A stretch of DNA of 64,000 nt from Humibacillus xanthopallidus. GTDB taxonomy: Bacteria > Actinomycetota > Actinomycetes > Actinomycetales > Dermatophilaceae. Below are positions 35,207-54,932 of the stretch, piece after piece (the stretch's first letter is position 1; each line of letters starts with the position of its first letter). The stretch lies in the NCBI RefSeq assembly GCF_006717145.1, contig NZ_VFQF01000002.1, forward strand, positions 372,001 through 436,000, read 5' to 3'. The notes under the pieces were generated by a model. It worked only from the letters and a program-made list of their open reading frames with translations, searched no databases and was not told where the DNA came from. Both the position numbers and the translations under genes were made by a program.

Positions 35207-35291
35207 GAGCCACTCCCCGCCAGTCCCCCCCGCCGGTCCGCGCGGCCCCCACCACGCTTTGTCCAGCGTAGGTCTGACGAGGGCGCGGCGT

Positions 35292-35528
35292 TCAGAGGAC
35301 GGCAGAAGCCGGCACGTTGAGGATGAGGACGAGCTCGTTGTGAACGGAGCGCTGATGGGTGTCTGCGTACTGCAGGCGCAGGTGGTGGAGCAGCGAGTCG
35401 GTGCGGACGTCGCTGACGGTGCCGTTCTTCGGCACGCCGTCGCGGATCGGCCCAGCCTGGGCAGTGCCGGCGGAGGCGGCGAGTGCCACTGCGGCGAGCA
35501 GTCCGACTGCGGTCTGGCGAGCGTTCAT
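35292..35528 (-). CDS. small secreted protein of unknown function
   Basis: Predicted 78-residue protein beginning MNARQTAVGLLAAVALAASA with cleavage near AQA-G, so about 53 residues are exported. The mature part (GPIRDGVPKNGTVSDVRTDS and onward) is hydrophilic, His-rich in the middle (LLHHLRLQY) and has no cysteines. An AGGGAGAA ribosome site precedes the ATG at 35528. I do not recognise a family. It lies directly upstream of the LuxR-family gene in the same direction. Confidence 0.7.
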   Translation of the reverse strand: MNARQTAVGLLAAVALAASAGTAQAGPIRDGVPKNGTVSDVRTDSLLHHLRLQYADTHQRSVHNELVLILNVPASAVL

Positions 35529-35797
35529 GAGGGTTCTCCCTGAGTGGTGTGGCGGCCTCGTTGCCGCCTCTTCCACGGTTCCGCGCAGGAGCACCCCTGC
35601 ACATCGGGAGAACTCCCACACCTCGCGCTGGGGCCGCCCTCCTGCGACGGTGGTGACGAGCCCGCAGGAACCGGGCGCCGTCCTCGGCCGCCCGGCGGTG
35701 CCACAGGGCGACACGGTGGGTAAGCGTTCTGTGGCGGTTCCCAGACATAACTGGTTGATTGGCTTTCACAACCCGTCCAGCGCAGGAAGGTGCACCG
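35529..35797. promoter_or_regulatory. divergent control region of formate dehydrogenase and small secreted protein
   Basis: About 270 bp between divergent genes. The right end turns AT-richer (CATAACTGGTTGATTGGC at about 35746-35763), as expected for the fdhA promoter, and AGGAAGG at 35784-35790 is its ribosome site. I could not identify a confident operator or riboswitch. Confidence 0.4.
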
Positions 35798-38700
35798 GTG
35801 GATCCGAAGAAGACGCTCCTGTCGTGGCCCGTCGTCCGGCAGCTCCGCTCCGGTGACTTCCTCGGTCGCGGGCCCTCGGTGACGTCGGCCCGCACGCGTG
35901 GCCTCGAGCCGCGCACGTCGACCGCCGACAAGGTCGTCCAGAGCGTCTGCCCCTACTGCGCCGTCGGTTGTGGGCAGCGTGTCTTCGTCAAGGACGGGCG
36001 CGTCGTCCAGATCGAGGGTGACCCGGACTCGCCGGTCTCGCGAGGGCGCCTGTGCCCCAAGGGATCTGCGAGCGAGCAGCTCGTCAACAACCCCGGCCGC
36101 CAGCGCAAGGCGCTCTACCGCCGTCCCGGCGGCGCCGACTGGGAGCCGATCGAGCTGTCCACCGCCGTCGAGATGATCGCGCAGCGCTTCGTCGAGTCGC
36201 GTCGGCGCACGTGGCAGGACCACGACGAGCACGGGCGTCCGCTGCGCCGCACGATGGGCATCGCGTCCCTCGGCGGGGCGACGCTCGACAATGAGGAGAA
36301 CTACCTCATCAAGAAGCTCTTCACCGCAGCAGGCGCCATCCAGATCGAGAACCAAGCACGTATTTGACACTCCTCCACGGTCCCCAGTCTGGGGTCCTCG
36401 TTCGGGCGCGGCGGCGCCACGCAGTACGTGCAGGACCTGTCCAACGCCGACTGCATCGTCATCCAGGGATCGAACATGGCCGAGTGTCATCCGGTCGCCT
36501 ACCAGTGGGTGACGGAGGCACGTCTCAAGGGCGCCAAGGTCATCCACATCGACCCGCGCTTCACGCGGACGTCGGCGACCGCCGACAAGCACATCCCGAT
36601 CCGCGCCGGCAGCGACGTCGTGCTGCTCGGCGCCCTCATCAAGTTCATTCTCGACAACGAGCTGTACTTCAAGGAGTACGTCGTCGCGTACACGAACGCC
36701 GCGACCCTGGTGAACGAGGACTTCCAGGACACCGAGGACCTCGACGGGCTCTTCTCCGGCTACGACGACGAGTTGGGCAGCTACGCGCCCGACACCTGGG
36801 CCTACGCGAGCAGCGACGGCGAGGGCGACGAGTCGCCCGGCACCATCGGTGGGCCCGCGGCCGGGCACGAGCACGGCCAGAGCCAGTCGGAGCGGTCAGC
36901 CGGTGACCAGCACGGCTCCGGCGGCCCGGCGCTCGAGCATGCCCGCGTCCTGCGCGACGAGACGCTGCAGGACCCCAACACCGTCTTCCAGATCCTCAAG
37001 CGGCACTACGCCCGCTACACGCCCGAGATGGTGGCCGACACGTGCGGCATCAACGTCGACGACTTCAACTACCTCGCCAAGGCGGTCACGGAGAACAGCG
37101 GCCGCGAGCGCACGACGGCCTTCGTCTACGCGGTGGGCTGGACCCAGCACACCCTCGGTGCGCAGTTCATCCGCACGGCCGCGATCGTGCAGCTGCTCCT
37201 CGGCAACATGGGGCGCCCGGGCGGCGGCATCATGGCGCTGCGCGGGCACGCGAGCATCCAGGGCTCGACCGACATCCCCACGCTCTACAACATCCTCCCG
37301 GGCTACCTCGCGATGCCCGTGGCCGGCCTCCACGACACGTGGGAGGACTACGTCGGCGCGATCGGCAACAAGGAGCAGAAGGGCTTCTGGGCCAACGCCG
37401 ACACGTATGCCGTCAGCCTCCTCAAGGCGTGGTGGGGCAAGGCCGCGACGGCTGAGAACGACTGGCGCTTCGACTACCTCCCGCGTCTCTCCGGGGCCCA
37501 CGGCACCTACCAGACGACGATGGCGATGCTCGACGGCGAGGTCGAGGGCTACTTCCTCCTCGGACAGAACCCTGCCGTCGGGTCGGCCCACGGCCGCATG
37601 CAGCGTCAGGCCATGGCGAAGCTCAAGTGGCTCGTCGTGCGTGACTTCAACATGATCGAGTCGGCCACCTTCTGGAAGGACGGCCCCGAGATCGCCTCGG
37701 GCGAGCTCACGACCGAGGGCATCGAGACCGAGGTCTTCTTCCTGCCCGCCGCAGCGCACACGGAGAAGAGCGGGTCGTTCACCCAGACCCAGCGGATGCT
37801 CCAGTGGCACCACCAGGCGGTGCAGCCACCCGGTGACTGCCAGAGCGAGCTGCAGTTCTTCTTCGAGCTGGGCCGCCGGGTGCGCGAGCTGCTCGCCGAC
37901 TCGACCGACGAGCGCGACCGTCCCCTGCTCGACCTCACGTGGGACTACCCCGCCGACGAGAACGGCGACCCCGACGCCGAGGCGGTGCTCGCCGAGATCA
38001 ACGGCCGTCACCTGACGGGCGACAAGGCGGGACAGCCTCTTTCGGCCTACACGGAGATGAAGGCCGACGGCTCCACCGACGGCGGCTGCTGGATCTACAC
38101 CGGCGTCTACGCCGACGGCGTCAACCACGCCGCCGACCGCAAGCCCGGCCAGGAGCAGGACCTCACGGCGCTCGAGTGGGGCTGGGCGTGGCCGGCCAAC
38201 CGTCGCATCCTCTACAACCGCGCCTCGGCCGACCCCGAGGGCAAGCCGTGGAGCGAGCGCAAGAAGTACATCTGGTGGGACGAGGAGCAGGGCAGGTGGA
38301 CGGGGCACGACGTGCCCGACTTCGTGCCCGACAAGGCGCCGAGCTACCGTCCGGAGCCCGGCACGGGCGGCGCTGCGGGGCTCGCGGGCGATGACCCCTT
38401 CGTCATGCAGGCCGACGGCAAGGGCTGGCTCTTCGCGCCCAAGGGCATGCTCGACGGGCCGCTCCCGACGCACTACGAGCCGCAGGAGTCACCCGTCCGC
38501 AACCCGCTCTATGCCCAGCAGTCGAACCCGGCCCGCAAGGTCTTCCCCCGCAAGGACAACCTGTGGAGCCCGTCCGGTGACGAGCCGGGCGCCGACGTCT
38601 ACCCGTTCGTCTTCACGACCTACCGCCTCACCGAGCACCACACGGCCGGCGGCATGAGCCGCTGGCTGCCCTACCTGTCGGAGCTGCAGCCGGAGTTCTT

Positions 38701-39124
38701 CTGCGAGGTCTCACCCGAGCTCGCCGCGGAGCGGGGCCTCGAGAACGGCGGTTGGGCGACGATCGTCTCGGGCCGCGCCGCGATCGAGGCCCGGGTCATG
38801 GTGACCGAGCGGATGACACCGCTCGTCATCCGGGGCCGCACGATCCACCAGGTCGGCCTGCCCTACCACTGGGGTGTCGGCGGCAACGCGGTCGTCAGCG
38901 GCGACGCGGCCAACGACCTGCTCGGGGTCGCGCTCGACCCCAACGTGCAGATCCAGGAGAGCAAGGCCGGCTCTTGCGACATCGTGCCCGGTCGGCGCCC
39001 CACGGGTGAGGCGCTCCTGCGGCTCGTCGCCGAGTACCAGTCACGCGCGGGCAGCACCGTCATGACGGGCAACGAGCTGCGCACCGGCCACCCTGAGTCA
39101 ACCCCCGACACGAGAGGAGGCTGA
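35798..39124 (+). CDS. fdhA: formate dehydrogenase catalytic subunit, selenocysteine-containing
   Basis: Predicted 1108-residue molybdenum/tungsten bis-MGD formate dehydrogenase. An N-terminal [4Fe-4S] motif uses Cys51, Cys54, Cys58 and Cys86 with the conserved Lys88. An in-frame TGA at 36365-36367 falls exactly at the catalytic site, reading QARI-U-HSSTVPSLGSSF, so residue 190 is selenocysteine followed by the conserved His191. Both flanks stay in one frame and match known Sec-formate dehydrogenases. A Gly/Ser/His-rich insert lies near residues 330-375. The GTG at 35798 follows AGGAAGG; no Tat signal is visible, suggesting a cytoplasmic active site. It heads an operon with fdhB and the membrane subunit, and the Sec machinery is encoded 2-10 kb downstream. 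Confidence 0.95.
36365..36400 (+). promoter_or_regulatory. bacterial SECIS element
   Basis: Immediately after the UGA, GGTCCCCA (36379-36386) pairs with TGGGGTCC (36390-36397), leaving a GTC apical loop and one T-T mismatch. The loop begins 20 nt after the UGA and shows the AGUCUG context seen in E. coli fdhF (AGGUCUG). This is the expected SelB-binding hairpin. Confidence 0.85.
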
Positions 39125-39127
39125 CCG

Positions 39128-40207
39128 ATGGGCTTCTGGCGCAACCAGCTCTCAGGGCCGACCGATCCCGCGGCCGATGCCGCGTGGGACCGGCGCGAGC
39201 CGCGCAAGGGCTTCTTCACCGACACCTCCATCTGCATCGGCTGCAAGGCCTGCGAGGTGGCGTGCAAGGAGTGGAACCACGTGCCCGAGGACGGGCTCGA
39301 CCTGCTCAACCAGTCCTACGACAACACCGGTGCGCTCGGGGCGAGCACGTGGCGCCACGTGGCCTTCGTCGAGCAGTCGAGCGAGCGCATCGAGCAGGCC
39401 CGCGAGTCGGGTCGCCGGCTCGTCCAGCTCGGTATGCCGTCCGTGCGCACTGCGCCCGAGCCCCCTCTCATGGGTGGTGGCGTCACGACCACCGACCCGG
39501 CGGTGCCCGACCTGCGCTGGCTCATGGCATCCGACGTGTGCAAGCACTGCACGCACGCGGCCTGTCTCGACGTGTGCCCGACCGGGTCGCTCTTCCGCAC
39601 CGAGTTCGGCACCGTCGTCGTGCAGGACGACGTCTGCAACGGCTGCGGCTACTGCGTCGCGGCCTGCCCGTTCGGCGTCATCGAGCGCCGGAGCGGTCAC
39701 GAGGGTCACGAGAAGGGCGCCCGGTCGCACGGCATCAGCATCAAGGGGTCCGGGGGGTCGGGCGACACGAGCAGGGGTTCGCACCAGAACCCCCCGTCCC
39801 ACGCCGAGACCAACGGCGAGGTGAAGAACGTCGGCATCGCCCAGAAGTGCACGCTCTGCTACGACCGGCTCGGAGCCGGCCAGACTCCCGCCTGTGCGCA
39901 GGCCTGTCCGACGACCTCGATCAAGTTCGGCGACCTCGACGAGATGCGCGCCACGGCCCGCGCCCGGGTCGCCGAGCTGCACGAGCTCGGCTACCCCGAG
40001 GCTCGGCTCTACGGCGTCGACGAGCACGACGGTGTCGGCGGCACCGGCTCCACGTTCCTGCTGCTCGACGAGCCCGAGGTCTACGGGCTGCCGCCGGACC
40101 CGCGGGTCACGACCGCCGACCTGCCCGACATGTTCCGCAAGGCCGGCTACGCGGGGCTGACGATGCTCGGTCTGGCCGCGGCAGCGTTCGTCGGGAGGCG
40201 TCGATGA
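39128..40207 (+). CDS. fdhB: formate dehydrogenase iron-sulfur subunit
   Basis: Predicted 359-residue electron-transfer subunit with four [4Fe-4S] clusters. The cysteine groups are visible as ICIGCKACEVACKEW (Cys36, 39, 42, 46), CKHCTHAACLDVCP, CNGCGYCVAACPF and CTLCYDRLGAGQTPACAQAC. A hydrophilic Gly/Ser/His-rich insert of about 45 residues separates the third and fourth groups, longer than usual. The C-terminus ends in a short hydrophobic helix (GLTMLGLAAAAFVG) that could contact the membrane subunit. It starts 3 bp after fdhA, behind AGAGGAGG, and overlaps the next gene. Confidence 0.93.
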   Translation: MGFWRNQLSGPTDPAADAAWDRREPRKGFFTDTSICIGCKACEVACKEWNHVPEDGLDLLNQSYDNTGALGASTWRHVAFVEQSSERIEQARESGRRLVQLGMPSVRTAPEPPLMGGGVTTTDPAVPDLRWLMASDVCKHCTHAACLDVCPTGSLFRTEFGTVVVQDDVCNGCGYCVAACPFGVIERRSGHEGHEKGARSHGISIKGSGGSGDTSRGSHQNPPSHAETNGEVKNVGIAQKCTLCYDRLGAGQTPACAQACPTTSIKFGDLDEMRATARARVAELHELGYPEARLYGVDEHDGVGGTGSTFLLLDEPEVYGLPPDPRVTTADLPDMFRKAGYAGLTMLGLAAAAFVGRRR

Positions 40208-41310
40208 CGGTCAACCCCTTCGACGCAGACCGCCCCCCGGAGCGCGCGCGCCGCGGCAACGGCGAGCGAAAGCGCAACGGCCAGAACGGCGCCCGCCGCC
40301 GCGACGAGTCGCTCATGGTGCCCGATGTGTCGTTCGACAGCTACTACGGCCGCCACATCGTCAAGCCCGCGCCGTGGGAGAAGGAGATCGCGGCATACCT
40401 CTTCCTCGGCGGTGTGGCCGGCGGGTCGGCACTGCTCGCGGCAGGGGGTCGCGCCCTCGGCTACCCGGCGCTGCAGCGCGTCGGGCGAGTGGGGGCCATG
40501 GGGGCTGCGGCGCTCGGTGGTGCCGCGCTCGCCAAGGACCTCGGCAAGCCGAGCCGGGCCCTCAACATGATGCGCACCGTCAAGCTCACCTCGCCGATGT
40601 CGGTCGGCTCGTGGATCCTCACTGCCTTCAGCGGGTTCTCGGGCCTGGCCCTCGCCTCCGAGGTGACGCAGGCCATCGCCGCCCGGAGCCAGGGTGGGGT
40701 CGGGGGTGGCTCCGCCGTCGCTCGCGTGGCCCGTGTGCTCGAGCTCGTGGACGGGCCCGCGACGGTGGGTTCGGCACTCTTCGCACCGCCCCTCGCGGCA
40801 TACACCGCAGTGCTGCTCGCCGACACGGCCACCCCGACCTGGCACGAGTCCTACCGTGAGCTGCCCTTCGTCTTCGTCAGCTCCGCCAACCTCGCGGCCG
40901 CCGGGCTCGCTCTGGTCGCGGTGCCGACGGCGCAGAACGGGCCGGCGCGGCGGCTCGCCGCCGTCAGTGCGGTGGCCGAGACCCTCGCGTTCGAGCGGAT
41001 GCAGGACAAGCTCGGCCCGACGCTGTCGGAGCCGCTGCGCACGGGCAAGGCCGGGCGGCTGGTTCGGGCGAGCAAGGCCCTGACGATCGCGGGCGCCGTC
41101 GGCTCCGTCGCGCTGGGGCGCAGTCGGGTGGCGGCCGCGGTGAGCGGCCTTGCCCTCATGGCAGGTTCGGCCTGTCTGCGATTCGGCGTCTTCGAAGCGG
41201 GCCTGGCATCGGCGATCGACCCGAAGTACACCGTCGAACCCCAGCGGGAGCGGCTGGAACGCCGCCGCGCCGCGGGTGTCGTCGACGACTCCATCACGAC
41301 GGCGCGATAG
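40204..41310 (+). CDS. NrfD-type membrane subunit of formate dehydrogenase
   Basis: Predicted 368-residue integral membrane protein of the NrfD/PsrC family with about eight helices. KPAPWEKEIAAYLFLGGVAG is the family's N-terminal signature, and MSVGSWILTAFSGFSGLAL follows. It would pass electrons from FdhB to menaquinone. The first 40 residues are an Arg/Asn-rich cytoplasmic extension. The ATG overlaps the fdhB stop (ATGA), so translation is coupled. The stop codon lies within the loop of a hairpin shared with convergent selD. Confidence 0.9.
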   Translation: MTVNPFDADRPPERARRGNGERKRNGQNGARRRDESLMVPDVSFDSYYGRHIVKPAPWEKEIAAYLFLGGVAGGSALLAAGGRALGYPALQRVGRVGAMGAAALGGAALAKDLGKPSRALNMMRTVKLTSPMSVGSWILTAFSGFSGLALASEVTQAIAARSQGGVGGGSAVARVARVLELVDGPATVGSALFAPPLAAYTAVLLADTATPTWHESYRELPFVFVSSANLAAAGLALVAVPTAQNGPARRLAAVSAVAETLAFERMQDKLGPTLSEPLRTGKAGRLVRASKALTIAGAVGSVALGRSRVAAAVSGLALMAGSACLRFGVFEAGLASAIDPKYTVEPQRERLERRRAAGVVDDSITTAR

Positions 41311-41320
41311 CGCGCCGTCG
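41297..41320. terminator. hairpin between fdh operon and selD
   Basis: CGACGGCGCG (41297-41306) and its exact complement (41311-41320) flank a 4-nt ATAG loop. The hairpin overlaps the end of the membrane subunit gene and sits 4 bp from the selD stop, so it can terminate both converging transcripts. Confidence 0.85.
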
Positions 41321-41324
41321 CAGG

Positions 41325-42329
41325 TCACCGCACGTTGATGGCGGCCCCGGTGCGCGCGGTGAACACGCCGATGACGGTGCCCCCGGGCATCTCGCCGGCG
41401 ACGAGCAGTCCACCGCTCGTCTGGGCATCGGCGAGCAGGATGAGGTCCTCGTCGGACACGGCCGCCTCGAGGTGGGGTCGCACCCAGTCGAGGTTGCGCC
41501 TGCTGCCGCCGGGCACGAAGCCCTCCCGCAGCGACTCCCGAGCCCCCTCGAGGTAGGGCACGGCGCGGGCGTCGATGACGGCCGACACCCCCGACGCCCG
41601 AGCCATCTTGTAGAGGTGCCCGAGCAGCCCGAAGCCGGTGACGTCCGTCGCGGCCCTCACGCCCGCCGCGAGGGCCGCGGAGCTCGCCGTGTCGTTGAGG
41701 GCGACCATCGACTCCACGGCGTGAGAGAAGACCTCGCCGGTCGCTTTGTGACGGTTGTTGAGGACGCCGACCCCGAGCGGCTTGGTCAGGCTTATCGGGA
41801 GGCCGGCTTGTGCAGCATCGTTGCGCAGCAAGCGATTCGGGTCGGCCAGCCCGGTGACGGCCATGCCGTACTTCGGCTCCGGGTCGTCGATGCTGTGGCC
41901 GCCGGCGACCGGGCACCCGGCGAGGCGAGCGACGTCGAGGCCGCCCCGCAGCACCTCCTGCGCGAGCTCCGGCGGGAGCACGTCGCGGGGCCAGCCGAGC
42001 AGGTTGACGGCGAGGATCGGGCGCCCGCCCATCGCATAGATGTCGGAGAGGGCGTTGGCTGCCGCGATGCGGCCCCAGTCGTAGGCGTCGTCGACGACGG
42101 GCGTGAAGAAGTCGGCAGTCGCGAGCACCGCGATGTCGCCGTGCGGCCCGCCCTCGATGCGGACCGCGGCCGCGTCGTCGCCGTCGTCGAGACCGACGAG
42201 CAGGTCGGCCGACCCGATCCCCACGAGGCCGCGCACCATGTCCTCCAGCTCCCCTGGGGGGATCTTGCAGGCACAGCCCCCGCCGTGGGCGTACTGGGTG
42301 AGCCGGGTCGTCGCGGGTGAGGTCGTCAC
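41325..42329 (-). CDS. selD: selenide, water dikinase (selenophosphate synthetase)
   Basis: Predicted 334-residue SelD, which makes selenophosphate from selenide and ATP for selenocysteine synthesis. The glycine-rich active-site loop AHGGGCACKIPP carries Cys19 and Lys22 (matching E. coli Cys17 and Lys20), so this copy uses Cys and not Sec. GDDAAAVRI, LATADFFTPVVDD, NALSDIYAMGG and AGGHSIDDPEPKYG are further family motifs. The GTG at 42329 fits the family N-terminus; open frame beyond it crosses the tRNA-Sec gene and is not used. Unusually it faces the fdh operon, while selA and selB lie on the other strand behind the tRNA. Confidence 0.94.
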   Translation of the reverse strand: MTTSPATTRLTQYAHGGGCACKIPPGELEDMVRGLVGIGSADLLVGLDDGDDAAAVRIEGGPHGDIAVLATADFFTPVVDDAYDWGRIAAANALSDIYAMGGRPILAVNLLGWPRDVLPPELAQEVLRGGLDVARLAGCPVAGGHSIDDPEPKYGMAVTGLADPNRLLRNDAAQAGLPISLTKPLGVGVLNNRHKATGEVFSHAVESMVALNDTASSAALAAGVRAATDVTGFGLLGHLYKMARASGVSAVIDARAVPYLEGARESLREGFVPGGSRRNLDWVRPHLEAAVSDEDLILLADAQTSGGLLVAGEMPGGTVIGVFTARTGAAINVR

Positions 42330-42437
42330 CCGTCGACTGTATGCGGACCGCTCGCTCCCAGAGCGCCGCCCGGTCGGTCGAGACCGCAGTCCCGACCCGT
42401 GCGCGCCCGGGCCGCCGGACTGGGTACGGTGGCGCGT

Positions 42438-42533
42438 GGAGGTGTCTGGGCACCTGGTGGTCCCCCCGGTCTTCAAAACCGGTGAGGCCGAGCATCTCGG
42501 CCTGGCGGGTTCGATTCCCGTCCACCTCCGCCA
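42438..42533 (+). tRNA. selC: tRNA-Sec (anticodon TCA)
   Basis: A 96-nt gene with encoded 3' CCA. The acceptor stem GGAGGTG pairs with CACCTCC, and the discriminator is G. The anticodon arm CCGGT-CTTCAAA-ACCGG carries anticodon TCA, which reads UGA. A long variable arm with stem GGCCGA/TCGGCC and a TTCGATT T-loop complete the picture; the overall length and the extended variable arm are hallmarks of tRNA-Sec. It lies between divergent selD and selA, 56 bp before the SelA start. A possible -10 box TACGGT lies at 42425-42430. Confidence 0.96.
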
Positions 42534-42589
42534 GCACGGCCCGCTCGCAGCGGGTGGTGGCGGTCGAAGGCGTGGAGAGGACAACGGTC

Positions 42590-43915
42590 GTGTCGCAGGC
42601 GGATCCACGGCGCAGCGTCCCGCGCACCGACGTGCTGCTGGCCCACCCCGCCCTCGTGGCCGCGGCAGATCGACACGGCGCGGGAGCGGTCAGGTCCGCG
42701 GTGCGGTCGGCCCAGGCGAGAGTTCGCGCCGGCGAGATCGCGCCCGGCGAGGTCGTCGCGGCAGCTCAGGCGGCACTGCCGGCACGCAGCACGACCCTGC
42801 GTCCGCTCCTCAACGCCACGGGCGTCGTCGTGCACACGAACATCGGCCGGGCCCCCCTCTCCGACGCCGCGATCGAGGCCATCGGGGCGGCGGCGGGCTA
42901 CGTCGACGTCGAGTTCGACACCGCGACCGGAGCGCGCGCCCGACGCGGGCGCGGCACCCTCGACGCGCTGCGCGCCGCCGTCCCCGGCGCCGGTGACGCC
43001 CTCGTGGTCAACAACGGAGCGGCCGCGCTCGTCCTCGCGACGACGGCCCTGGCCGCCGGCCGCGAGGTCGTCGTCAGCCGCGGCGAGATGGTCGAGATCG
43101 GCGATGGATTCCGGCTGCCCGACCTCATCGCCTCGACGGGCGCCCGGCTGCGCGAGGTCGGCACGACGAACCGGACCCGCCTCGCCGACTACGCCGCCGT
43201 CGTCGGCCCGGACACCGGCTGCGTCCTCAAGGTCCACCCGAGCAACTTCCGCGTCGAGGGCTTCACGAGCGCGGCCTCCGTGCAGGAGCTCGCGACGCTC
43301 GGGGTGCCGCTCGTCGTCGACATCGGCAGCGGGCTGCTGGGCCCGGACCCGCTGATCCCCGACGAGCCGGATGCCACGACGGTGCTCCACGACGGCGCGA
43401 CCGTGGTGACGGCGAGCGGTGACAAGCTGCTCGGCGGCCCCCAGGCCGGCCTCGTCCTCGGTGAGGCCGCCACGGTCGAGCGGCTGCGCCGGCACCCCCT
43501 CGCCCGGGCGCTGCGCGTCGACAAGCTGACGCTCGCCGCCCTCGAGGCGACGTTGCGTGGCCCCGTGAGCCCGGTGACGGCATACCTCCACGCCGACGGC
43601 GAGGGCCTGCGGGCGCGCACCGAGCGACTCGCGGCGGTGGCGTCAGGAGACGTCGTGGCCGTCGAGGGGCGCGTCGGTGGGGGCGGAGCGCCGGGGGTGC
43701 CGTTGCCCGGCTGGGCCGTGGCGCTGCCCGAGGCGTGCGCCGAGCGGCTGCGGCGCGGCGAGCCCGGCGTCGTGGCGCGGGTGGAGCGTGGCCGGTGCCT
43801 CGTCGACCTCCGCTGCGTGCCGCCTGACCGCGACGGCGACGTCGAGGCGGCCGTGCTCTCAGCGCTCGACGAGCTCGACGAGCTCGCTCGCGGCAAGTCC
43901 ACCCGCGAGGGCTGA
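42590..43915 (+). CDS. selA: L-seryl-tRNA(Sec) selenium transferase
   Basis: Predicted 441-residue PLP enzyme that converts seryl-tRNA(Sec) to selenocysteyl-tRNA(Sec) with selenophosphate. The pyridoxal lysine is Lys279 in TASGDKLLGGPQAG. LLNATGVVVHTNIGRAPLS, VVNNGAAALVLA, LREVGTTNRTRLADY and VHPSNFRVEGFT are family signatures. The start chosen is the GTG at 42590, nine bases after GGAGAGG; a GTG at 42572 would overlap that site. The gene follows tRNA-Sec and ends 3 bp before selB. Confidence 0.95.
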   Translation: MSQADPRRSVPRTDVLLAHPALVAAADRHGAGAVRSAVRSAQARVRAGEIAPGEVVAAAQAALPARSTTLRPLLNATGVVVHTNIGRAPLSDAAIEAIGAAAGYVDVEFDTATGARARRGRGTLDALRAAVPGAGDALVVNNGAAALVLATTALAAGREVVVSRGEMVEIGDGFRLPDLIASTGARLREVGTTNRTRLADYAAVVGPDTGCVLKVHPSNFRVEGFTSAASVQELATLGVPLVVDIGSGLLGPDPLIPDEPDATTVLHDGATVVTASGDKLLGGPQAGLVLGEAATVERLRRHPLARALRVDKLTLAALEATLRGPVSPVTAYLHADGEGLRARTERLAAVASGDVVAVEGRVGGGGAPGVPLPGWAVALPEACAERLRRGEPGVVARVERGRCLVDLRCVPPDRDGDVEAAVLSALDELDELARGKSTREG

Positions 43916-43918
43916 CCC

Positions 43919-45784
43919 GTGCACGTCGTCGCGACCGCCGGGCACGTCGACCACGGCAAGTCGACGCTCGTGCGCGCCCTGACCGGCATCGAGCCCGACC
44001 GGTGGGCCGAGGAGCACCGCCGCGGCATGACGATCGACCTCGGCTACGCGTGGACGACCCTCGCCACGGGCGTCGAGGTCGCGTTCGTCGACGTGCCCGG
44101 CCACGAGCGCTTCATCGGCAACATGCTTGCGGGGCTCGGCCCCGCCCCGGCTGTCGTCCTCGTCGTCGCTGCCGACGAGGGGTGGCGGCGGCAGTCGGCG
44201 GAGCACCTCGCCGCGGTCGACGCGCTCGGCATCTCGCACGGTCTGCTCGTCGTCACGCGCAGCGACCTCGCCGACCCGGGGCCCGCCCTGGCGCAGGCGG
44301 GGGAGCAGCTCGCGAGGACGAGCCTGTCGGGGAGCCCGGCGCTCGCCGTCTCCGCGCGCATGGGCCAGGGCATGGACGACCTGCGGGCTGCACTCGGCGA
44401 CCTCGTTGCCACCCTCCCCGCCCCGGACACCGGCGGGCGCACCCGTCTGTGGGTCGACCGCTCCTTCTCGATCCGCGGCAGCGGGACCGTCGTCACGGGC
44501 ACCCTGGGCCAGGGGACGATCCGGGTCGGCGACGACGTCGTCGTCCACCGCCACTCGGGAGCGAGGCTCCGGGCGACGGTGCGTGGCCTCCAGAGCCTCG
44601 AGCAGCCCCGCGACGCCGTCTCCGCCGTGGCCCGGGTTGCCGTCAACCTCCGCGGGGTGGGGGTGGACGACGTCGCCCGTGGCGATGCCCTGCTCACTCC
44701 CGGCGCCTGGCACCTGACGAGGACGGTCGACGTGCGGCTCACGACCGACTCGACCGACCCGACCAGCTCGACCCACCCGTCCGCCGAGACGTCACACGGG
44801 GACGCGCAGGCGCGTCAGCGGCTGCCGGCCCACCTCATGGTCCACGCCGGCACGGTCGCCGTGGAGGCGCGGGTGCGCCCGCTCGGCCCCGGAGCGCTGC
44901 GCCTGGGCCTTCCCGAGCCGCTGCCCCTGGCTGCGGGCGACCGGATCGTCCTGCGCGACCCCGGGTCGCGTCGCGTCGTCGGTGCGCTCGTCGTCGACGC
45001 CGACCCACCCCGGCTCGACCGCCGTGGTGCCGCAGCCCGTCGGGCCGATGAGGTCGTGAGCCTCGCCGGGGCGCCCGACCTCGCGCGCGAGGTGGCACGG
45101 CGGGGGTGGATGCGTCACGACGACGCGGCCTCGCTCGGGATCGCCGTGCCCTCCGGCCCTCGTCCCGCCGGCACCGTCACGCGCCGCGGGGCCTGGCTCG
45201 TCGACGACGACGCCTGGGTGGTGGCTGCCGAGCGGCTGCGCACGGCCGCGGAGCGGCGCGCCGAGTCCACGCCCATCGACCCCGTCCTCCCGCTCGAGGC
45301 CGCCCGCGCGGCTGCCGGGGTGCCCGACCGGGCGCTCGTGACCGCGCTCGCCGAAGGTGCCGGGCTCGAGGTCCGTGACGGGCGGGTCGGCCTGCCGGGT
45401 CGTTCGGCGGCCCTCGGTGACCGCGCCGAGAACGCGCTCCGGGCGATCGAGGCCGAGTTGCGCCAGCACCCCTTCGCGGCGCCCGAGCAGCACGACCTCG
45501 ACGCGGCCGGGCTCGGGGCCCGCGAGCTCGCCGCCGCCGAGGGCACCGGCCGCATCCTCCGGCTGCCGGGTGACGTCGTGCTCCTCCCGTCGGCGCCGGC
45601 GCTCGCGATGCGCGAGCTCGCCCGGCTGCCCCAGCCCTTCACGACGAGTGACGCCCGCCAGGCGCTGGGCTCGACCCGTCGCGTCGTGATCCCGCTCCTC
45701 GAGCACCTCGACGGCCGGGGCTGGACCCGCCGCCTCGACGGCTCGCACCGCGAGGTCGTCCGCGCCCGGCCTGCCTCGTCCTGA
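43919..45784 (+). CDS. selB: selenocysteine-specific elongation factor SelB
   Basis: Predicted 621-residue GTPase that carries Sec-tRNA to the ribosome at a UGA with a SECIS hairpin. G1 is GHVDHGKS (residues 8-15), G2 lies in RRGMTIDLGYAW, G3 is DVPGHERF and a TRSD motif stands in for NKxD. EF-Tu-like domains follow (IRGSGTVVTGTLGQG), and the last 250 residues are winged-helix domains that bind the SECIS. A Ser/Thr/Asp-rich insert at about residues 275-302 is atypical. A GTG start is used 3 bp after selA. Confidence 0.95.
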   Translation: MHVVATAGHVDHGKSTLVRALTGIEPDRWAEEHRRGMTIDLGYAWTTLATGVEVAFVDVPGHERFIGNMLAGLGPAPAVVLVVAADEGWRRQSAEHLAAVDALGISHGLLVVTRSDLADPGPALAQAGEQLARTSLSGSPALAVSARMGQGMDDLRAALGDLVATLPAPDTGGRTRLWVDRSFSIRGSGTVVTGTLGQGTIRVGDDVVVHRHSGARLRATVRGLQSLEQPRDAVSAVARVAVNLRGVGVDDVARGDALLTPGAWHLTRTVDVRLTTDSTDPTSSTHPSAETSHGDAQARQRLPAHLMVHAGTVAVEARVRPLGPGALRLGLPEPLPLAAGDRIVLRDPGSRRVVGALVVDADPPRLDRRGAAARRADEVVSLAGAPDLAREVARRGWMRHDDAASLGIAVPSGPRPAGTVTRRGAWLVDDDAWVVAAERLRTAAERRAESTPIDPVLPLEAARAAAGVPDRALVTALAEGAGLEVRDGRVGLPGRSAALGDRAENALRAIEAELRQHPFAAPEQHDLDAAGLGARELAAAEGTGRILRLPGDVVLLPSAPALAMRELARLPQPFTTSDARQALGSTRRVVIPLLEHLDGRGWTRRLDGSHREVVRARPASS

Positions 45785-45818
45785 GCCCGCTCCACCCTGA
45801 GCTCGTCCTGCTGAGCCC

Positions 45819-45853
45819 GCCGGACGGCATACGCCCGCGGTATGCCGTCCGGC
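45819..45853. terminator. terminator built from two inverted CGGCATAC motifs
   Basis: GCCGGACGGCATAC (45819-45832) and its exact reverse complement (45840-45853) flank a 7-nt loop, 35 bp after the selB stop. Each arm contains the dispersed 8-mer, so this is an inverted motif pair acting as a probable selB terminator upstream of lhr. Confidence 0.85.
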
Positions 45854-45935
45854 GCGGTGCCGATCGACCCGCGCGGCGCCCGCCGGGCGACGGCGCCCCC
45901 AGCGGGTGTCGGTGGGGGATGGCAGGCTGACCTCG

Positions 45936-48900
45936 ATGGCGAAGGACAAGCGGGCCGACGTGCTCGACCGATTCTCCCCGGCGACGGCCGCGTGGTTCCG
46001 GGGCAGCTTCAGCGCGCCCACCGCGGCGCAGGCGGGTGCATGGGACGCGATCAGCTCGGGCCACCACTGCGTCGTCGTCGCGCCGACCGGGTCGGGCAAG
46101 ACGCTGTCGGCCTTCCTCTGGGCCATCGACCGTATGGCGAGCGAGCCGGTGCCCGACGAGAAGCTCGCGCGCTGCCGGGTGCTCTACGTCTCGCCGATGA
46201 AGGCGCTCGCCGTCGACGTCGAGCGCAACCTGCGCGCACCGCTCGTCGGCATCGGTCACGCCGCGACGCGGCTCGAGCTCCCGCAGCCCGACATCGGGGT
46301 GAGCGTGAGGTCGGGCGACACCCCCGCGGGCGAGCGCCGCGCCTTCGCCCGCACGCCGACCGACATCCTCATCACGACCCCCGAGTCGCTCTTCCTCATG
46401 CTCACCTCATCGGTTCGCGAGGCGCTCAAGGGGGTCGAGACGGTCATCATCGACGAGGTCCACGCCGTCGCGGGCACCAAGCGTGGGGCTCACCTCGCGC
46501 TGACCCTCGAGCGGCTCGACGCCATCCTGCCGAAGCCTGCCCAGCGCGTCGGCCTGTCGGCGACGGTGCGTCCGGTCGAGGAGGTCGCCCGCTACCTCGC
46601 CGGCGGCCGGCCGGTCGAGATCGTCCAGCCGGTGTCGACCAAGGAGTGGCAGCTCGAGGTCGTCGTGCCGGTGCCCGACATGGGCGAGCTGTCGGGGGCT
46701 GCCGCCGAGATCTCGCCGGGGGTCCCCGACCTCTCGGGGCCGGCGGCGGGCAACGCCCCGCAGGCGAGCATCTGGCCGCACGTCGAGGAGCGCATCGTCG
46801 ACCTCATCGCCGACCACCGCTCGACCCTCGTCTTCGCCAACTCGAGGCGCCTCGCCGAGCGTCTGACGTCTAGGCTCAACGAGATCTGGGAGGAGCGGCT
46901 GGCCGAGGACGAAGGGCTGCCGCTGGCCAGCGTCGGCGCCACCCGGGCCCCGGCTCAGGTCATGGCCCAGGCGGGCACGAGCCGCGGCGCCCCGCCGATC
47001 CTCGCCCGGGCCCACCACGGGTCGGTGAGCAAGGAGCACCGCGCCGCCATCGAGGAGGACCTCAAGGCCGGGCGCCTGCCCGCGGTCGTCGCGACGAGCA
47101 GCCTCGAGCTCGGCATCGACATGGGGGCCGTCGACCTCGTCATCCAGGTCGAGAGCCCGCCGAGCGTCGCGAGCGGCCTGCAGCGGGTGGGTCGCGCGGG
47201 GCACCAGGTGGGCGCGGTCAGCGAGGGCGTGCTCTTCCCGAAGTTCCGCGGCGACCTCGTCCAGACCGCCGTCGTCGTCGAGCGCATGCGGGCCGGGGCG
47301 ATCGAGTCGCTGCGCATCCCGGCCAACCCCGTCGACGTGCTCGCCCAGCACGTCGTCGCGATGTGCGCGATGGACGAGTGGAGCGTCGCCGACGTCGAGT
47401 CCCTCGTGCACCGCACCGCGAGCTTCGCCTCGCTCCCGCGCTCGGTGCTCGAGGCGACCCTCGACATGCTCGCCGGGCGCTACCCCTCCGACGAGTTCGC
47501 CGAGCTGCGCCCCCGCATCGTCTGGGACCGCGTCACCGACACGCTCACCGGCCGCCGCGGAGCCCAGCGCCTCGCTGTCACGAGCGGCGGCACGATCCCC
47601 GACCGCGGGCTGTATGCCGTCTTCCTCGCCTCCGGTGAGGGGCCCGGTCGCCGGGTCGGCGAGCTCGACGAGGAGATGGTCTACGAGTCGCGCGTCGGTG
47701 ACGTCTTCACCCTCGGCACGTCGACGTGGCGCATCGAGGACATCACCCACGACCGCGTCCTCGTCACACCCGCGCCCGGCCAGGCCGGCAAGCTGCCGTT
47801 CTGGAAGGGCGACCAGCAGGGCCGGCCTGCCGAGCTCGGCCGCGCGCTCGGTGCCTTCGTCCGCGAGATCGTCGGGCTGACGCCGGAGCGGGCCCGCGCG
47901 CGGGTCACCGCTGCCGGCCTCGACGAGTGGGCGGCCGACAACCTCATCGCCTACCTCACCGAGCAGAAGGAGGCGACGCGCCACGTCCCCGACGACCGCA
48001 CGATCGTCGTCGAGCGCTTCCGCGACGAGATCGGCGACTGGCGGGTCGCGGTGCTCTCGCCCTTCGGTGGGCAGGTCCACGCGCCGTGGGCGCTGTGCGT
48101 CGCGGCGCGCATGCGCGAGCGCTTCGGGGTCGACGTGCAGGCGATGCACGGCGACGACGGCATCGTCTTCCGCCTGCCCGACCTCGAGTTCGACGACCCG
48201 GCGGGCGGGGGTCAGATCGGCCAGCAGCTCATCGAGCTCGTGACCCTCGAGCCCGAGGAGGTCAGCGAGCTCGTCACGCAGGAGATCGGCGGATCCGCCC
48301 TGTTCGCAGCGCGATTCCGCGAGTGCGCCGCGCGTGCCCTGCTGCTGCCGCGGCGCCGCCCCGACCGCCGCCAGCCGTTGTGGCAGCAGCGGCAGCGGGC
48401 GGCGCAGCTGCTCGAGGTGGCGAGCCAGTACCCCACCTTCCCCATCGTCCTCGAGGCCGTGCGCGAGTGCGTCCAGGACGTCTTCGACGTGCCGGGTCTC
48501 GTTGACCTGATGACCGACATCCGCTCGCGTGGCGTCAAGGTCGTCGACGTCGAGTCGAGCCAACCGAGCCCCTTCGCGAAGTCGCTCGTCTTCGGCTACG
48601 TCGCCCAGTACCTCTACGAGGGCGACTCGCCGCTCGCCGAGCGGCGGGCGGCCGCGCTCGCCCTCGACCCGTCGCTGCTGTCCGAGCTGCTCGGTCAGGG
48701 TGAGGCGCTCGCGCTGCGCGACCTGCTCGACCCCGAGGCGGTGGCCCGCACCGAGGCGGAGCTCCAGCGGCTGACGCCCGAGCGTGGTGCCCGCGACGGC
48801 GAGGACGTCGCCGACCTGCTCCGCGTGCTCGGGCCGCTCTCGATGGGCGACATCGTCGCCCGCGCTGCCGAGGGCTTCGACCCGGCTGCGATCCAGGCGG

Positions 48901-50930
48901 CCGTCTCCGAGCTCGAGCAGGCCCGCCGCGTCATCGCGGTCCGCGTCGCCGGTGACGACCGCTGGGCCGCCATCGAGGACGCCGCACGACTGCGCGACGC
49001 GCTCGGCACCTCCCTGCCCGTCGGCGTGCCGCAGGCGTTCCTCGAGCCGGTGCCCGACCCGCTCGCCGACCTCGTCGCCCGGTTCGCCCGCACCCACGGG
49101 CCCTTCGCTGTGCAGACCGTCGCGGTCTGGTGGGGCCTCGGTCCGGCGGTGGTCCACGACGCGCTGCGCCGGCTCGTCGGCTCGGGCCGCGTCGTCGAGG
49201 GCGAGCTGCTGCCGACCGAGAACGGCGGCGGTCATGGCCCGGAGTTCTGCGACGCCGAGGTGCTGCGGCTGCTGCGCCGACGGTCGCTCGCCGCCCTGCG
49301 CCACGAGGTCGAGCCCGTCGGCCAGCTCGACCTCGCCCGCTTCCTGCCGCAGTGGCAGGGAGTCGGCGGTGGCCTGCGCGGGCGCGAGGGGCTGCTGCGA
49401 GCCGTCGAGCAGCTCACCGGGGCGGTCGTGCCGGCCAGCGCGCTCGAGACGCTCGTCCTCCCGGCCCGGGTCGCCGACTACCGCCCTGCTCTGCTCGACG
49501 AGGTGATGAGTGCCGGTGAGGTCGTCTGGCGAGGCCACGGCTCCCTGCCGGGCGACGACGGCTGGGTCAGCCTGCACCTCGCCGACGCCGCCCATCTCAC
49601 GCTGACACCACCCGACGACACCGAGCTCACCGATGCCGAGCGGGCCGTCCTCGACGCTCTCGAGGGTGGCGGCGCCTACTTCTTCCGCGCGCTCGCCAGC
49701 CGTGTCGGCCTCGGTGACACGGAGACCAACGACGCGCTGTGGTCGCTGCTGTGGTCCGGCCGCGTCACCAACGACACAGTCGCCCCCCTTCGCGCGCTGC
49801 TCGCCGGCGGGCGCACGGCCCACAAGCGCGCCCCCTCGGGCCCCCGGTCGACGCGGTATGCCGGCCGGCGCGGCTCGCTCGGCCGCTTCGGCTCCCTGCG
49901 CGGTGCCGTCGCAGGCGCGAGCCCGGCGCAGGTCGAGGCTGCCGAGGACGCCGCGACGACCAAGGCTCTCGCGGTGGGTCGGGCAGCCGGGTCGGGGCCG
50001 TCCACCGGGGTCGGCCGCTGGACCGCGCTGCCTCCCGCCGAGTCCGACCCGACGGTGCGCGCGGTCACCAACGCCGAGCTGCTCCTCGACCGCTACGGGG
50101 TGCTGACCCGTGGCTCGGTCGTCACCGAGGATGTCCCCGGAGGCTTCGCGGCGGTCTACCGCGTGCTCGCCGCGGCAGAGGAGGCCGGAAAGGTGCGCCG
50201 CGGCTACTTCGTCGAGGGCCTCGGTGCGTCGCAGTTCGCCTCGACGGGTGCCGTCGACCGGCTGCGGTCGATGTCACGGCTGCCCGGCGCGACCGCGTCC
50301 CAGCAGTCCGAGCAGTCCGGCGGCAGGGTCGACCCGAGCCTGGGCGACGACTGGGCGACGCCGGCACCCGGCCAGCGCGGCGGCATACCAGCTCGGCACG
50401 GCAGGAGCGCCGACGCGCGGCGGGAGCGCACCGGGCCGCCGGCCCTCGTGCTCGCCGCGAGCGACCCGGCCAACCCCTACGGCGCGAGCATCTCCTGGCC
50501 CGAGCGCGGGCTCACCGAGCCCGGAGAGAGCACCGACGAACGCAGCGACGCGCCCGGCGCGGAGGCCGGTGGCCGGCGCGCGACGGCCGAGCGCGGTCCG
50601 GGCGGCACGGCGGGTGAGGGCGGTCGCCCCCGCCGCAAGGGCCACCAGCCGAGCCGCAAGGCTGGGGCGCTCGTCGTGCTCGTCGACGGCGACCTCGTGC
50701 TCTACGTCGAGCGTGGCGGCAAGACGATGCTCTGCTGGTCCGACGACACGGAGCGGCTGCAGGCGGCAGCCGACGCACTGGCGCTCGCCGTCCGTGAGGG
50801 CGCACTCGGCCGCCTCACGGTCGAGAAGGCCGACGGCGCCTCCGTGCTGGGCTCCGGTCACCCGCTCGTCGAGGCGCTCTCCCACGCGGGCTTCCACATG
50901 ACACCGCGTGGGCTGCGGCTCCGTCGCTGA
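45936..50930 (+). CDS. lhr: large superfamily 2 helicase Lhr
   Basis: Predicted 1664-residue 3'-5' DNA/RNA-DNA helicase implicated in DNA repair in actinobacteria. The Lhr core shows Walker A APTGSGKT at about residues 49-56, Walker B IIDEVHAV, SATVRPVEEVA, then a second RecA domain with ARAHHGSVSKEHR, ATSSLELGIDMG and QRVGRAGHQ. Winged-helix and Lhr-specific domains follow. The C-terminal 700 residues match the Lhr extension, interrupted by low-complexity stretches around 1445-1570. The ATG at 45936 begins MAKDKRADVLDRFSP. The usual partner nei is not adjacent. The protein is somewhat longer than typical (about 1500). Confidence 0.93.
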   Translation: MAKDKRADVLDRFSPATAAWFRGSFSAPTAAQAGAWDAISSGHHCVVVAPTGSGKTLSAFLWAIDRMASEPVPDEKLARCRVLYVSPMKALAVDVERNLRAPLVGIGHAATRLELPQPDIGVSVRSGDTPAGERRAFARTPTDILITTPESLFLMLTSSVREALKGVETVIIDEVHAVAGTKRGAHLALTLERLDAILPKPAQRVGLSATVRPVEEVARYLAGGRPVEIVQPVSTKEWQLEVVVPVPDMGELSGAAAEISPGVPDLSGPAAGNAPQASIWPHVEERIVDLIADHRSTLVFANSRRLAERLTSRLNEIWEERLAEDEGLPLASVGATRAPAQVMAQAGTSRGAPPILARAHHGSVSKEHRAAIEEDLKAGRLPAVVATSSLELGIDMGAVDLVIQVESPPSVASGLQRVGRAGHQVGAVSEGVLFPKFRGDLVQTAVVVERMRAGAIESLRIPANPVDVLAQHVVAMCAMDEWSVADVESLVHRTASFASLPRSVLEATLDMLAGRYPSDEFAELRPRIVWDRVTDTLTGRRGAQRLAVTSGGTIPDRGLYAVFLASGEGPGRRVGELDEEMVYESRVGDVFTLGTSTWRIEDITHDRVLVTPAPGQAGKLPFWKGDQQGRPAELGRALGAFVREIVGLTPERARARVTAAGLDEWAADNLIAYLTEQKEATRHVPDDRTIVVERFRDEIGDWRVAVLSPFGGQVHAPWALCVAARMRERFGVDVQAMHGDDGIVFRLPDLEFDDPAGGGQIGQQLIELVTLEPEEVSELVTQEIGGSALFAARFRECAARALLLPRRRPDRRQPLWQQRQRAAQLLEVASQYPTFPIVLEAVRECVQDVFDVPGLVDLMTDIRSRGVKVVDVESSQPSPFAKSLVFGYVAQYLYEGDSPLAERRAAALALDPSLLSELLGQGEALALRDLLDPEAVARTEAELQRLTPERGARDGEDVADLLRVLGPLSMGDIVARAAEGFDPAAIQAAVSELEQARRVIAVRVAGDDRWAAIEDAARLRDALGTSLPVGVPQAFLEPVPDPLADLVARFARTHGPFAVQTVAVWWGLGPAVVHDALRRLVGSGRVVEGELLPTENGGGHGPEFCDAEVLRLLRRRSLAALRHEVEPVGQLDLARFLPQWQGVGGGLRGREGLLRAVEQLTGAVVPASALETLVLPARVADYRPALLDEVMSAGEVVWRGHGSLPGDDGWVSLHLADAAHLTLTPPDDTELTDAERAVLDALEGGGAYFFRALASRVGLGDTETNDALWSLLWSGRVTNDTVAPLRALLAGGRTAHKRAPSGPRSTRYAGRRGSLGRFGSLRGAVAGASPAQVEAAEDAATTKALAVGRAAGSGPSTGVGRWTALPPAESDPTVRAVTNAELLLDRYGVLTRGSVVTEDVPGGFAAVYRVLAAAEEAGKVRRGYFVEGLGASQFASTGAVDRLRSMSRLPGATASQQSEQSGGRVDPSLGDDWATPAPGQRGGIPARHGRSADARRERTGPPALVLAASDPANPYGASISWPERGLTEPGESTDERSDAPGAEAGGRRATAERGPGGTAGEGGRPRRKGHQPSRKAGALVVLVDGDLVLYVERGGKTMLCWSDDTERLQAAADALALAVREGALGRLTVEKADGASVLGSGHPLVEALSHAGFHMTPRGLRLRR

Positions 50931-50958
50931 GCGACGACCGGCCGGGTCGCGCCGGGTC

Positions 50959-53066
<2,108 letters not shown>

Positions 53067-53208
53067 GGTGGTGCTCGCTCTCTGCTCGAGTCAGTGCGTG
53101 GTCGTCCAGCACCCAGCCAACCCCTCGACGCGTGGATGCGACAGGCCCTGTCATGAGGGGTACTGGCAGGGACTCCCACGGGCGGGCCGGAGACGTACCG
53201 TTGACGCC
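53067..53208. promoter_or_regulatory. divergent dehydrogenase/regulator control region
   Basis: A 142-bp gap with a 13-bp palindrome GACAGG-C-CCTGTC at 53140-53152 and a nearby GGGACTCCC (around 53168-53176). Either could be the operator for the divergent XRE-family regulator. No experimental support is visible in sequence. Confidence 0.4.
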
Positions 53209-54150
53209 ATGGCAGCCAGGGACCAGCCGACGACGAACGACCTCAAGGAGTTCCTCACCACCCGACGCGCCAAGATCACCCCCGAGCAGTCCGGGCTCCC
53301 CCTCTACGGAGCCAACCGGCGCGTCGCCGGCCTGCGCCGCGAGGAGGTCGCGCTGCTCGCCGGGATCAGCGTCGAGTACTACACGCGTCTCGAGCGCGGC
53401 AGCGTCGGCAACGTCTCCGAGGGCGTCCTCGACGGGCTCGTCCACGCGCTCCAGCTCGACGAGGCCGAACGCGACCACCTCTACCGACTCGTGCGTGCGG
53501 CGAGCGCCCCGGCCGGCCGCGGGCCGCGCCGTGCCCCGACGCGCAGGCAGGTCCGGCCCGCCCTGCAGAGGGTCCTCGACCAGATGCTCCTGCCGGCCTT
53601 CATGCGCAACGGTCGCTTCGACGTCCTCGCCGCCAACGACCTGGGCCGGGCCCTCTACAGCCCGCTCTACGCCTTCGCCGCGGCCCACACGCCGGGCGAG
53701 CCGCCCAACAGCGCCCGGTTCATCTTCCTCGATCCCCACGCCTCCGAGTTCTTCATCGACCACGACCGGACCGCCGACGACTGCGTCGCCTTCCTGCGCG
53801 CCGAGGCCGGTCGCGACCCCTACGACAAGGCCCTCTCCGACCTCGTCGGTGAGCTGTCCACCCGGAGCGAGGACTTCCGGCGCCGCTGGGCGGCGCACGA
53901 CGTCCGCTACCACCGCACCGGGCGCAAGCGCCTGCACCACCCGCTCGTCGGTGACCTCGAGCTCGACTACGAGGCGTTCGAGCTGCCCGGCGACCCGGGC
54001 CAGCGGGTCAACGTCTACACGGCACCACCCGACTCGCCGTCCGACGCTGCGCTCAACCTCCTCGCGAGCTGGACGGCCCGGGACGGGTCGACTGCACGGG
54101 AGGACTCCGGCGACCTACCGCCGGTGCGTCGTCCCGGGGGCGACGGCTGA
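53209..54150 (+). CDS. XRE-family regulator with MmyB-like ligand domain
   Basis: Predicted 313-residue repressor/activator. The N-terminal helix-turn-helix reads RVAGLRREEVALLAGISVEY with YTRLERG, and the C-terminal domain (PAFMRNGRFDVLAANDLGRA, HDVRYHRTGRKRLHHPLVG) is the MmyB-like region that binds small ligands in many actinobacterial regulators. The ATG at 53209 begins MAARDQPTT. Divergence from the dehydrogenase/reductase pair makes those genes its likely targets. Confidence 0.9.
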   Translation: MAARDQPTTNDLKEFLTTRRAKITPEQSGLPLYGANRRVAGLRREEVALLAGISVEYYTRLERGSVGNVSEGVLDGLVHALQLDEAERDHLYRLVRAASAPAGRGPRRAPTRRQVRPALQRVLDQMLLPAFMRNGRFDVLAANDLGRALYSPLYAFAAAHTPGEPPNSARFIFLDPHASEFFIDHDRTADDCVAFLRAEAGRDPYDKALSDLVGELSTRSEDFRRRWAAHDVRYHRTGRKRLHHPLVGDLELDYEAFELPGDPGQRVNVYTAPPDSPSDAALNLLASWTARDGSTAREDSGDLPPVRRPGGDG

Positions 54151-54236
54151 CCTGACGGCACAGTTCCGCTCCCGCTCGTGGTTCCACGCGATCATCCGCC
54201 GGGCGCCGCGCAACGCCCGAGCGTGGCGATGGCGCA

Positions 54237-54932
54237 CTACCGCTGGAGCGCCTTGAGCGTCATCGGCCGGCCGCCGCTCAGGCGGTCGACCTGGACGAGG
54301 TAGAGCTCGGCGCAGGCGAGCGCGTCGGTGAGGGCCTCGTGGGCGGCATACCGGGGGAGGCCCAGGTTGGCGCGCGCCGTGCCCAGGCGCAGCGCACCGG
54401 GCGGGAGGTCCTCGCCCGCGTGGCTGCGCAGGACGCGGCTCTGCAGCTCCATCGTGTCGACGGCGGTGATCGGCAGCGGCACCCCGAGCTCGCGCTCGCA
54501 CGCCGCCGAGAGGAAGCCGGTCTCGATCACGGCGTGGTGCGCGAGCAGCACCCGGCCGGTGAGGGCCGCGGCCACACGTTCGAGGAGGTCGCGCAGGGCG
54601 ATGCCGCCCGCGAGCGCGTCGTCGGTGATCCCGTGGATCGTCGCGCTCTGCCCGACCTCGACGTCGGCGCGGCAGATCAGCTGCTCGGCGCCCGCGAGGT
54701 TGATCTGAAGCCCGTCGACCGGAACGAAGCCCACCGACAGGATGTGGTCGGCGCGCGGGTCGAGGCCGGTGGTCTCGAGGTCGAGCGCGAGCAGCGGTAG
54801 GTCGGAGACGTCAGTGCGCGGGCCGGGCGGGGCGCTCGCGAGGTAGTCGCGCACCGGTCCCGGGGGCGCCTGCTCGGCCCACCGCGCTTGCCGTGCCCGC
54901 CGCCGGTCGACCCTGAACCGCGAGAGGATCAC
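54237..54932 (-). CDS. DnaQ-like 3'-5' exonuclease
   Basis: Predicted 231-residue DEDDh exonuclease. Motif ExoI is LALDLETTGLDPRADHI, ExoII lies in VLLAHHAVIETGFL and ExoIII in AAHEALTDALACAEL. It resembles DNA polymerase III epsilon-type proteins but has no polymerase partner here. It overlaps the DUF294 gene by 4 bp (ATGA-type), a pairing also found in other bacteria, where the two are thought to act in nucleotide or signal turnover. The substrate is not known. Confidence 0.9.
   Translation of the reverse strand: MILSRFRVDRRRARQARWAEQAPPGPVRDYLASAPPGPRTDVSDLPLLALDLETTGLDPRADHILSVGFVPVDGLQINLAGAEQLICRADVEVGQSATIHGITDDALAGGIALRDLLERVAAALTGRVLLAHHAVIETGFLSAACERELGVPLPITAVDTMELQSRVLRSHAGEDLPPGALRLGTARANLGLPRYAAHEALTDALACAELYLVQVDRLSGGRPMTLKALQR

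Follow-up and report, generated by a model that had tools for sequence, protein, structure and literature searches.

A strand-alternating octamer resembling DNA uptake sequences in a family of Actinomycetota

The octamer CGGCATAC, two inverted copies of which form a hairpin behind selB in the stretch of 64,000 nucleotides analysed here (the window), is probably a self-tag of the DUS/USS type, which, judging from sequence, would be read by a transformation machine made of a Flp/Tad pilus, ComEA and ComEC. The 5.39-Mb source genome, of Humibacillus/Terrabacter type, contains 3225 copies of the word (1590 + 1635), against 439 (217 + 222) for the reversed word used as a control. When sampled over 864 kb (41 stretches with 658 predicted genes), it yields 516 copies vs. 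16.9 expected from trinucleotides, while its 24 one-letter neighbours all range from 0.2 to 3.4 times their expectation; the signal is thus exact to the octamer. Similar figures are obtained for the window (36 copies vs. 0.81 expected) and for a second enriched genome, G221 (253 vs. 8.4). All the sequence-level features that define DUS and USS are found here, beginning with this huge over-representation of a short word on both strands. The likeness to uptake sequences proposed in a preliminary description of the window is therefore well supported by the genome statistics, even though its interpretation as a whole is only partly supported (see below).

As in known uptake sequences, the location of the word is permissive. 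Most copies are single and lie within genes, and the density in the 864-kb sample is 0.52 per kb in coding sequence and 1.90 per kb in short intergenic gaps, these placements being approximate because genes were called with a simple codon model of our own. All six frame/strand placements are used by the coding copies (306 out of 368 in two of them), which, together with the unenriched neighbours and the higher intergenic density, led us to reject a codon-usage artefact; moreover, the codon-driven words of silent genomes are mostly clustered on the same strand. The extended form CCGGA-CGGCATAC accounts for 22 of the 140 non-coding copies and 17 of the 376 coding ones. Within the window, extended copies (CCGGACGGCATAC) were recovered at the four positions listed in the preliminary description, as well as at a fifth that it had missed (Table 1) and in both arms of the selB hairpin. 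Another word, AATCGAAA/TTTCGATT, was encountered 48 times in the same 864 kb, about 100 times its trinucleotide expectation, and similar words exist in loci L045 and L071.

Pairs of same-strand copies lying 39–600 bp apart are far fewer than expected in the three genomes examined (79 vs. 175.7), while opposite-strand pairs at the same distances number 226 vs. 188 expected; same-strand pairs are still at about 0.8 of expectation at 600–1500 bp, and no shortage is observed farther out. The opposite-strand excess among neighbours thus exists because same-strand pairs fall short, and, since same-strand neighbours are halved and opposite-strand ones undepleted, the word seems to mark each strand separately. 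Neighbouring copies are opposite rather than same in ratios of 307:168 (source genome), 155:78 (G221) and 135:50 (G282), with 107:51 (Knoellia group) and 54:34 in pooled named loci; alternation is not significant in the high-copy genome G244 (84:70), nor in the pooled loci of Terrabacter (42:32) and Intrasporangium (24:15) taken alone. With an opposite-strand fraction of 0.646, CGGCATAC ranks first among 146 octamers of like abundance, itself included (mean 0.479, sd 0.039). Alternation is strong inside single genes (71:22, 58:15, 37:15) and absent among source-genome pairs with both copies in non-coding DNA (20:19). Same-strand spacing is even (CV of 0.75 vs. 0.93 with shuffled strand labels), and the whole-genome counts of the two strands in 106 high-copy genomes are more balanced than chance would have it (rms z of 0.78 vs. 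1.00 expected). This strand exclusion comes in addition to the DUS/USS features and points to a reader with a direction.

At the family level, 106 of 186 genomes are high in CGGCATAC (at least 400 copies), 65 are low (fewer than 120) and 15 are intermediate. Among the high genomes, the word reaches a median of 11.9 times its control and a maximum of 70 times, and it is abundant in none of 139 genomes from other families of the order (maximum 167 copies). Loss is patchy inside genera: G226 has 19 copies vs. 3681 in G227, and G255 only 50, though most genomes of its genus have several hundred or more. Most of the named relatives, which were identified through Lhr, belong to Intrasporangiaceae or neighbouring groups; Humibacillus xanthopallidus is the closest (95% identity). 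Our survey of dialects, based on k-mers in the named loci and in 20-kb stretches, one apiece from 19 genomes with low or intermediate counts, plus a stretch of G199, revealed the sister spellings CGGCATCC (32 copies in 20 kb of G178 and 17 in 20 kb of G318), CGTCATAC (L043, L071) and CGCATAC (L062, L058), in line with the lineage-specific dialects of DUS and USS. An unrelated word, CGAAGGGGG, which is mutually exclusive with CGGCATAC, was found on both strands in two genera devoid of the latter, with 1265–1939 copies in 5/5 genomes tested of g87 (G195, G199, G207) and g5 (G066, G233), where its control word has 14–29 copies, and also in loci L203, L204, L244 and L239; it is abundant in 0/7 other genomes tested (18 to 69 copies). 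The dialect words alternate as well (87 opposite and 38 same, summed over seven stretches), as does CGAAGGGGG in G199 (21:12 overall, 14:2 within 1 kb). For G226, G300, Phycicoccus and Micropruina, the search for an alternative word returned none that was convincing, and CGGCGTAC of G232 was rejected as a dialect for want of alternation (10:8). Two words of G226, a genome without CGGCATAC, are 4–5 times over expectation (CGCCGTAC and CGTCGTAC; L185–L194), which may reflect a decayed dialect or codon usage.

A directional reader could also be an end-processing helicase-nuclease (AdnAB or a relative), which would read the octamer on one strand and need one copy every few kb per strand. Chi, the signal of RecBCD and AddAB, is likewise an exact, octamer-sized and over-represented word read on one strand; CGGCATAC is exact and mostly genic, while same-strand exclusion without opposite-strand depletion is the selection expected from a reader that works in one direction and can act on either end of the DNA. 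Nevertheless, RecC, the Chi-reading subunit of RecBCD, was not found in the source genome and 60 other high-copy genomes (61/106) and is present in 37/65 low-copy ones; the word is thus not tracked by RecC, and RecBCD was rejected as its reader. Chi in E. coli has a bias linked to replication, whereas no consistent strand bias appears along the fetched 20-kb stretches, and replication-oriented signals such as KOPS were rejected because the strands are balanced across these stretches. Whole-genome counts are balanced too, both comparisons being made with the origin position unmapped. Finally, several spellings and an unrelated word within one family, along with the loss separating G226 from G227, would mean that a core enzyme of DNA repair had changed again and again. 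We consider a Chi-like recombination signal, the main rival to the uptake reading, unlikely; if this reading were correct instead, the source genome would harbour a Chi-type signal without RecBCD. The strand exclusion fits it equally well, and is no known feature of uptake sequences, since the orientation of USS has no effect on uptake in H. influenzae, according to the available part of PMC1939737.

Aligned CGGCATAC sites are conserved above background in nine Terrabacter/Humibacillus loci (47/69 vs. 27.4 expected, these loci not being independent), and the figure for five loci farther removed is 5/12 vs. 3.4 expected. The two motif-poorest of the 41 stretches, with 2 and 5 copies where 20 kb contain about 12 on average, encode conjugation proteins. 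That mobile DNA of recent acquisition has few copies, as observed here in two islands, is another DUS/USS feature, and low uptake-word density is described for Neisseria islands in the accessible text of PMC7371117. The two stretches, L141 (G000 C1:1920001-1940000) and L132 (C1:840001-860000), are lower in GC, feature a TrwC relaxase and a TraG/TraD coupling protein, and are likely integrative conjugative elements.

Depletion in these islands is not what one would predict for an intracellular signal involved in chromosome architecture, replication or repair and separate from uptake, for which HIP1 of cyanobacteria is the case to compare. The even same-strand spacing speaks in its favour, the even spacing of USS having once been read in this way by Karlin and colleagues (as reported in the available part of PMC1939737). 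However, no relation to the replication strand was seen in the fetched stretches, and the dialect switches are sharp and the losses patchy among close relatives, so that we regard such a signal as quite unlikely.

Regarding the putative uptake machine, the source genome encodes ComEC, ComEA, DprA, TadE and Flp-like pilins, the Flp pilins being recognised by eye. Across the family, ComEC is present in 180/186 genomes and T2SSF/Tad genes in 183/186, while the 5/106 high-copy genomes without a ComEC match are all fragmented or incomplete assemblies. A ComEA-like gene lies beside ComEC in at least 11 of 17 ComEC loci, whether from carriers or non-carriers. ComEC and T2SSF thus failed as discriminating genes, as they are near universal and also occur in genomes without CGGCATAC. 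A type IVa pilus was rejected too, with PilM in 7/186 family genomes and no match in the source genome. Hence, competence machinery accompanies the word as it does DUS and USS, but, because the ComEC, ComEA and Tad genes occur in carriers and non-carriers alike, its presence permits uptake and leaves unexplained which genomes carry the octamer.

In the preliminary description, inverted pairs of the word were held to double as terminators, and an enrichment of such pairs past genes was proposed as a genome-wide check. This check comes out in favour of one orientation and not of the other, to which the pair of the preliminary description itself belongs. From the copy density of the genome, about 15 pairs of each orientation are expected within 30 nt; head-to-head pairs (GTATGCCG..CGGCATAC) number 62 genome-wide, and tail-to-tail pairs 23, modestly above chance. 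Gene context was examined for 35/62 of the former and all 23 of the latter. Head-to-head pairs are intergenic in 31/35 cases, with 17 between tandem genes, 10 between convergent genes, 2 between divergent genes and 2 with one neighbour beyond the stretch, the remaining 4 being in genes; where both neighbours are known, 2/29 lie between divergent genes, while about one third of short intergenic DNA consists of divergent gaps. They commonly sit about 10–35 nt beyond a stop codon, and their stems reach 21 bp, such pairs at gene ends being a further feature shared with DUS and USS. Tail-to-tail pairs, the class to which the selB pair of the preliminary description belongs, do not favour gene ends: 6/23 are in genes, 8 between tandem, 2 between convergent and 7 between divergent genes, with 10 adjoining a gene end. 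A terminator role is therefore supported for head-to-head pairs, whereas the case for tail-to-tail pairs is weak. That the pair itself is the purpose of the motif, i.e., that CGGCATAC is a terminator element, would account for the 62 head-to-head pairs lying mostly just beyond stop codons, but not for the single copies inside genes nor for the tail-to-tail pairs within or between divergent genes; as all the close inverted pairs account for about 170 of the 3225 copies, this reading is most improbable.

The selB hairpin (Table 1) was reproduced: the 14 bp of its stem at 45819-45853 match perfectly around a loop of 7 nt, and an outer C-G pair (45818/45854) adds a fifteenth base pair. Its folding energy is -37.4 kcal/mol (z of -4.0). 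About 40 nt separate its octamers from the preceding selB stop and about 88 nt from the following lhr start, both as predicted. A stable stem shortly after a stop codon is what an intrinsic terminator requires, but the U-tract looked for after the stem is absent. Among 16 relatives examined, the selB C-terminus was located in six, of which two (L009 and L042) have the tail-to-tail pair; it is no general feature of selB 3' ends. Because of its long stem, its position after the stop codon and its retention in Humibacillus xanthopallidus (L009), the pair may still terminate selB, as had been suggested. The related arrangement noted at 5471-5516, a longer stem whose loop contains a single copy, was also recovered. 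The 12-letter DUS12 of Neisseria includes ATGCCG, which GTATGCCG shares, possibly by chance; when the common flank of GTATGCCG is counted in, the shared letters are ATGCCGTC (window 45825-45847).

Table 1. Coordinates of the features discussed, as positions in the window.
Feature	Coordinates	Strand	Remarks
Hairpin from two inverted CGGCATAC copies, 3' of selB	45818..45854	+	15-bp stem, 7-nt loop
CGGCATAC copy, left hairpin arm	45825..45832	+	
CGGCATAC copy, right hairpin arm	45840..45847	-	
selB, selenocysteine-specific elongation factor	43919..45784	+	Pfam PF09107, PF25461, PF00009
lhr, large helicase-related protein, gene after selB	45939..50930	+	Pfam PF19306, PF08494
Hairpin with 16-bp stem; loop contains one CGGCATAC at 5488-5495	5471..5516	.	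Fold -55.1 kcal/mol, z -6.4
Extended copy CCGGACGGCATAC	3942..3954	+	
Extended copy CCGGACGGCATAC	23269..23281	-	
Extended copy CCGGACGGCATAC	28785..28797	-	
Extended copy CCGGACGGCATAC	32313..32325	-	
Extended copy CCGGACGGCATAC	63570..63582	-	Missing from the preliminary description
All CGGCATAC copies of the window	350..63577	.	36 (19 on +, 17 on -)

For the uptake-type self-tag that we favour, we infer both the uptake machine as reader and the directionality of uptake. A putative surface receptor carried by the Flp/Tad competence pilus would bind external DNA at the octamer and hand this tagged DNA to ComEA/ComEC, and copies would accumulate as tagged DNA of the cell's own species is preferentially taken up. 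In a monoderm cell, one strand would enter from the bound site, each orientation serving one strand over about 1 kb; owing to such one-strand entry, same-strand neighbours would be redundant and opposite-strand ones would not. Where copies happen to be paired in inverted orientation, mostly head to head, they would be used as hairpin terminators, and the selB hairpin would be a less common, tail-to-tail instance of this reuse.

More broadly, we give about even chances to the proposal that DNA uptake sequences arose here independently for a third time, and for the first time outside Proteobacteria, as an actinobacterial Flp/Tad-pilus system with four or more related spellings plus an unrelated word in a single family, in which strands would be tagged separately since uptake is directional. 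If this is true, such convergence in Gram-positive soil bacteria would indicate that self-tags evolve repeatedly and with different pili. Receptor co-evolution could then be tested directly on the natural dialects and word switches of one family, and these bacteria might become easier to transform with constructs to which the word has been added. In the literature text that is available, GTATGCCG appears in no paper and CGGCATAC only in a Ralstonia typing paper. No literature joining uptake sequences with actinobacteria was found there; the name Intrasporangiaceae is in none of the papers among the matches listed, and these genera go unmentioned in a paper on spaced motifs (PMC5217627).

The closest parallel is the DUS of Neisseriaceae (receptor ComP), also a short, exact and non-palindromic word, which, according to the accessible portions of PMC3630211 and PMC7371117, occurs about once per 1–2 kb in both genic and intergenic DNA, with lineage dialects, low density in islands and inverted pairs at terminators. 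Unlike in Neisseriaceae, the present word belongs to Actinomycetota and not Proteobacteria, has no type IVa PilM match at its side, shows same-strand exclusion and is replaced by a second, unrelated word in sister genera; it is, besides, known only from sequence. Similarly, the USS of Pasteurellaceae has a density of about one copy per kb, lies predominantly within genes and forms inverted pairs of two orientations where genes end (PMC7811141 and PMC1939737, as far as their available text goes), but the sequence logo of CGGCATAC has no counterpart of the AT-rich USS flank. Finally, another actinobacterium, Micrococcus luteus, depends on ComEC and two tad loci for its transformation, and the term “uptake sequence” is absent from the accessible part of the paper (PMC4322843). 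This Flp/Tad-pilus transformation system resembles the one considered here in its ComEA, ComEC, DprA, TadE and Flp-like pilins.
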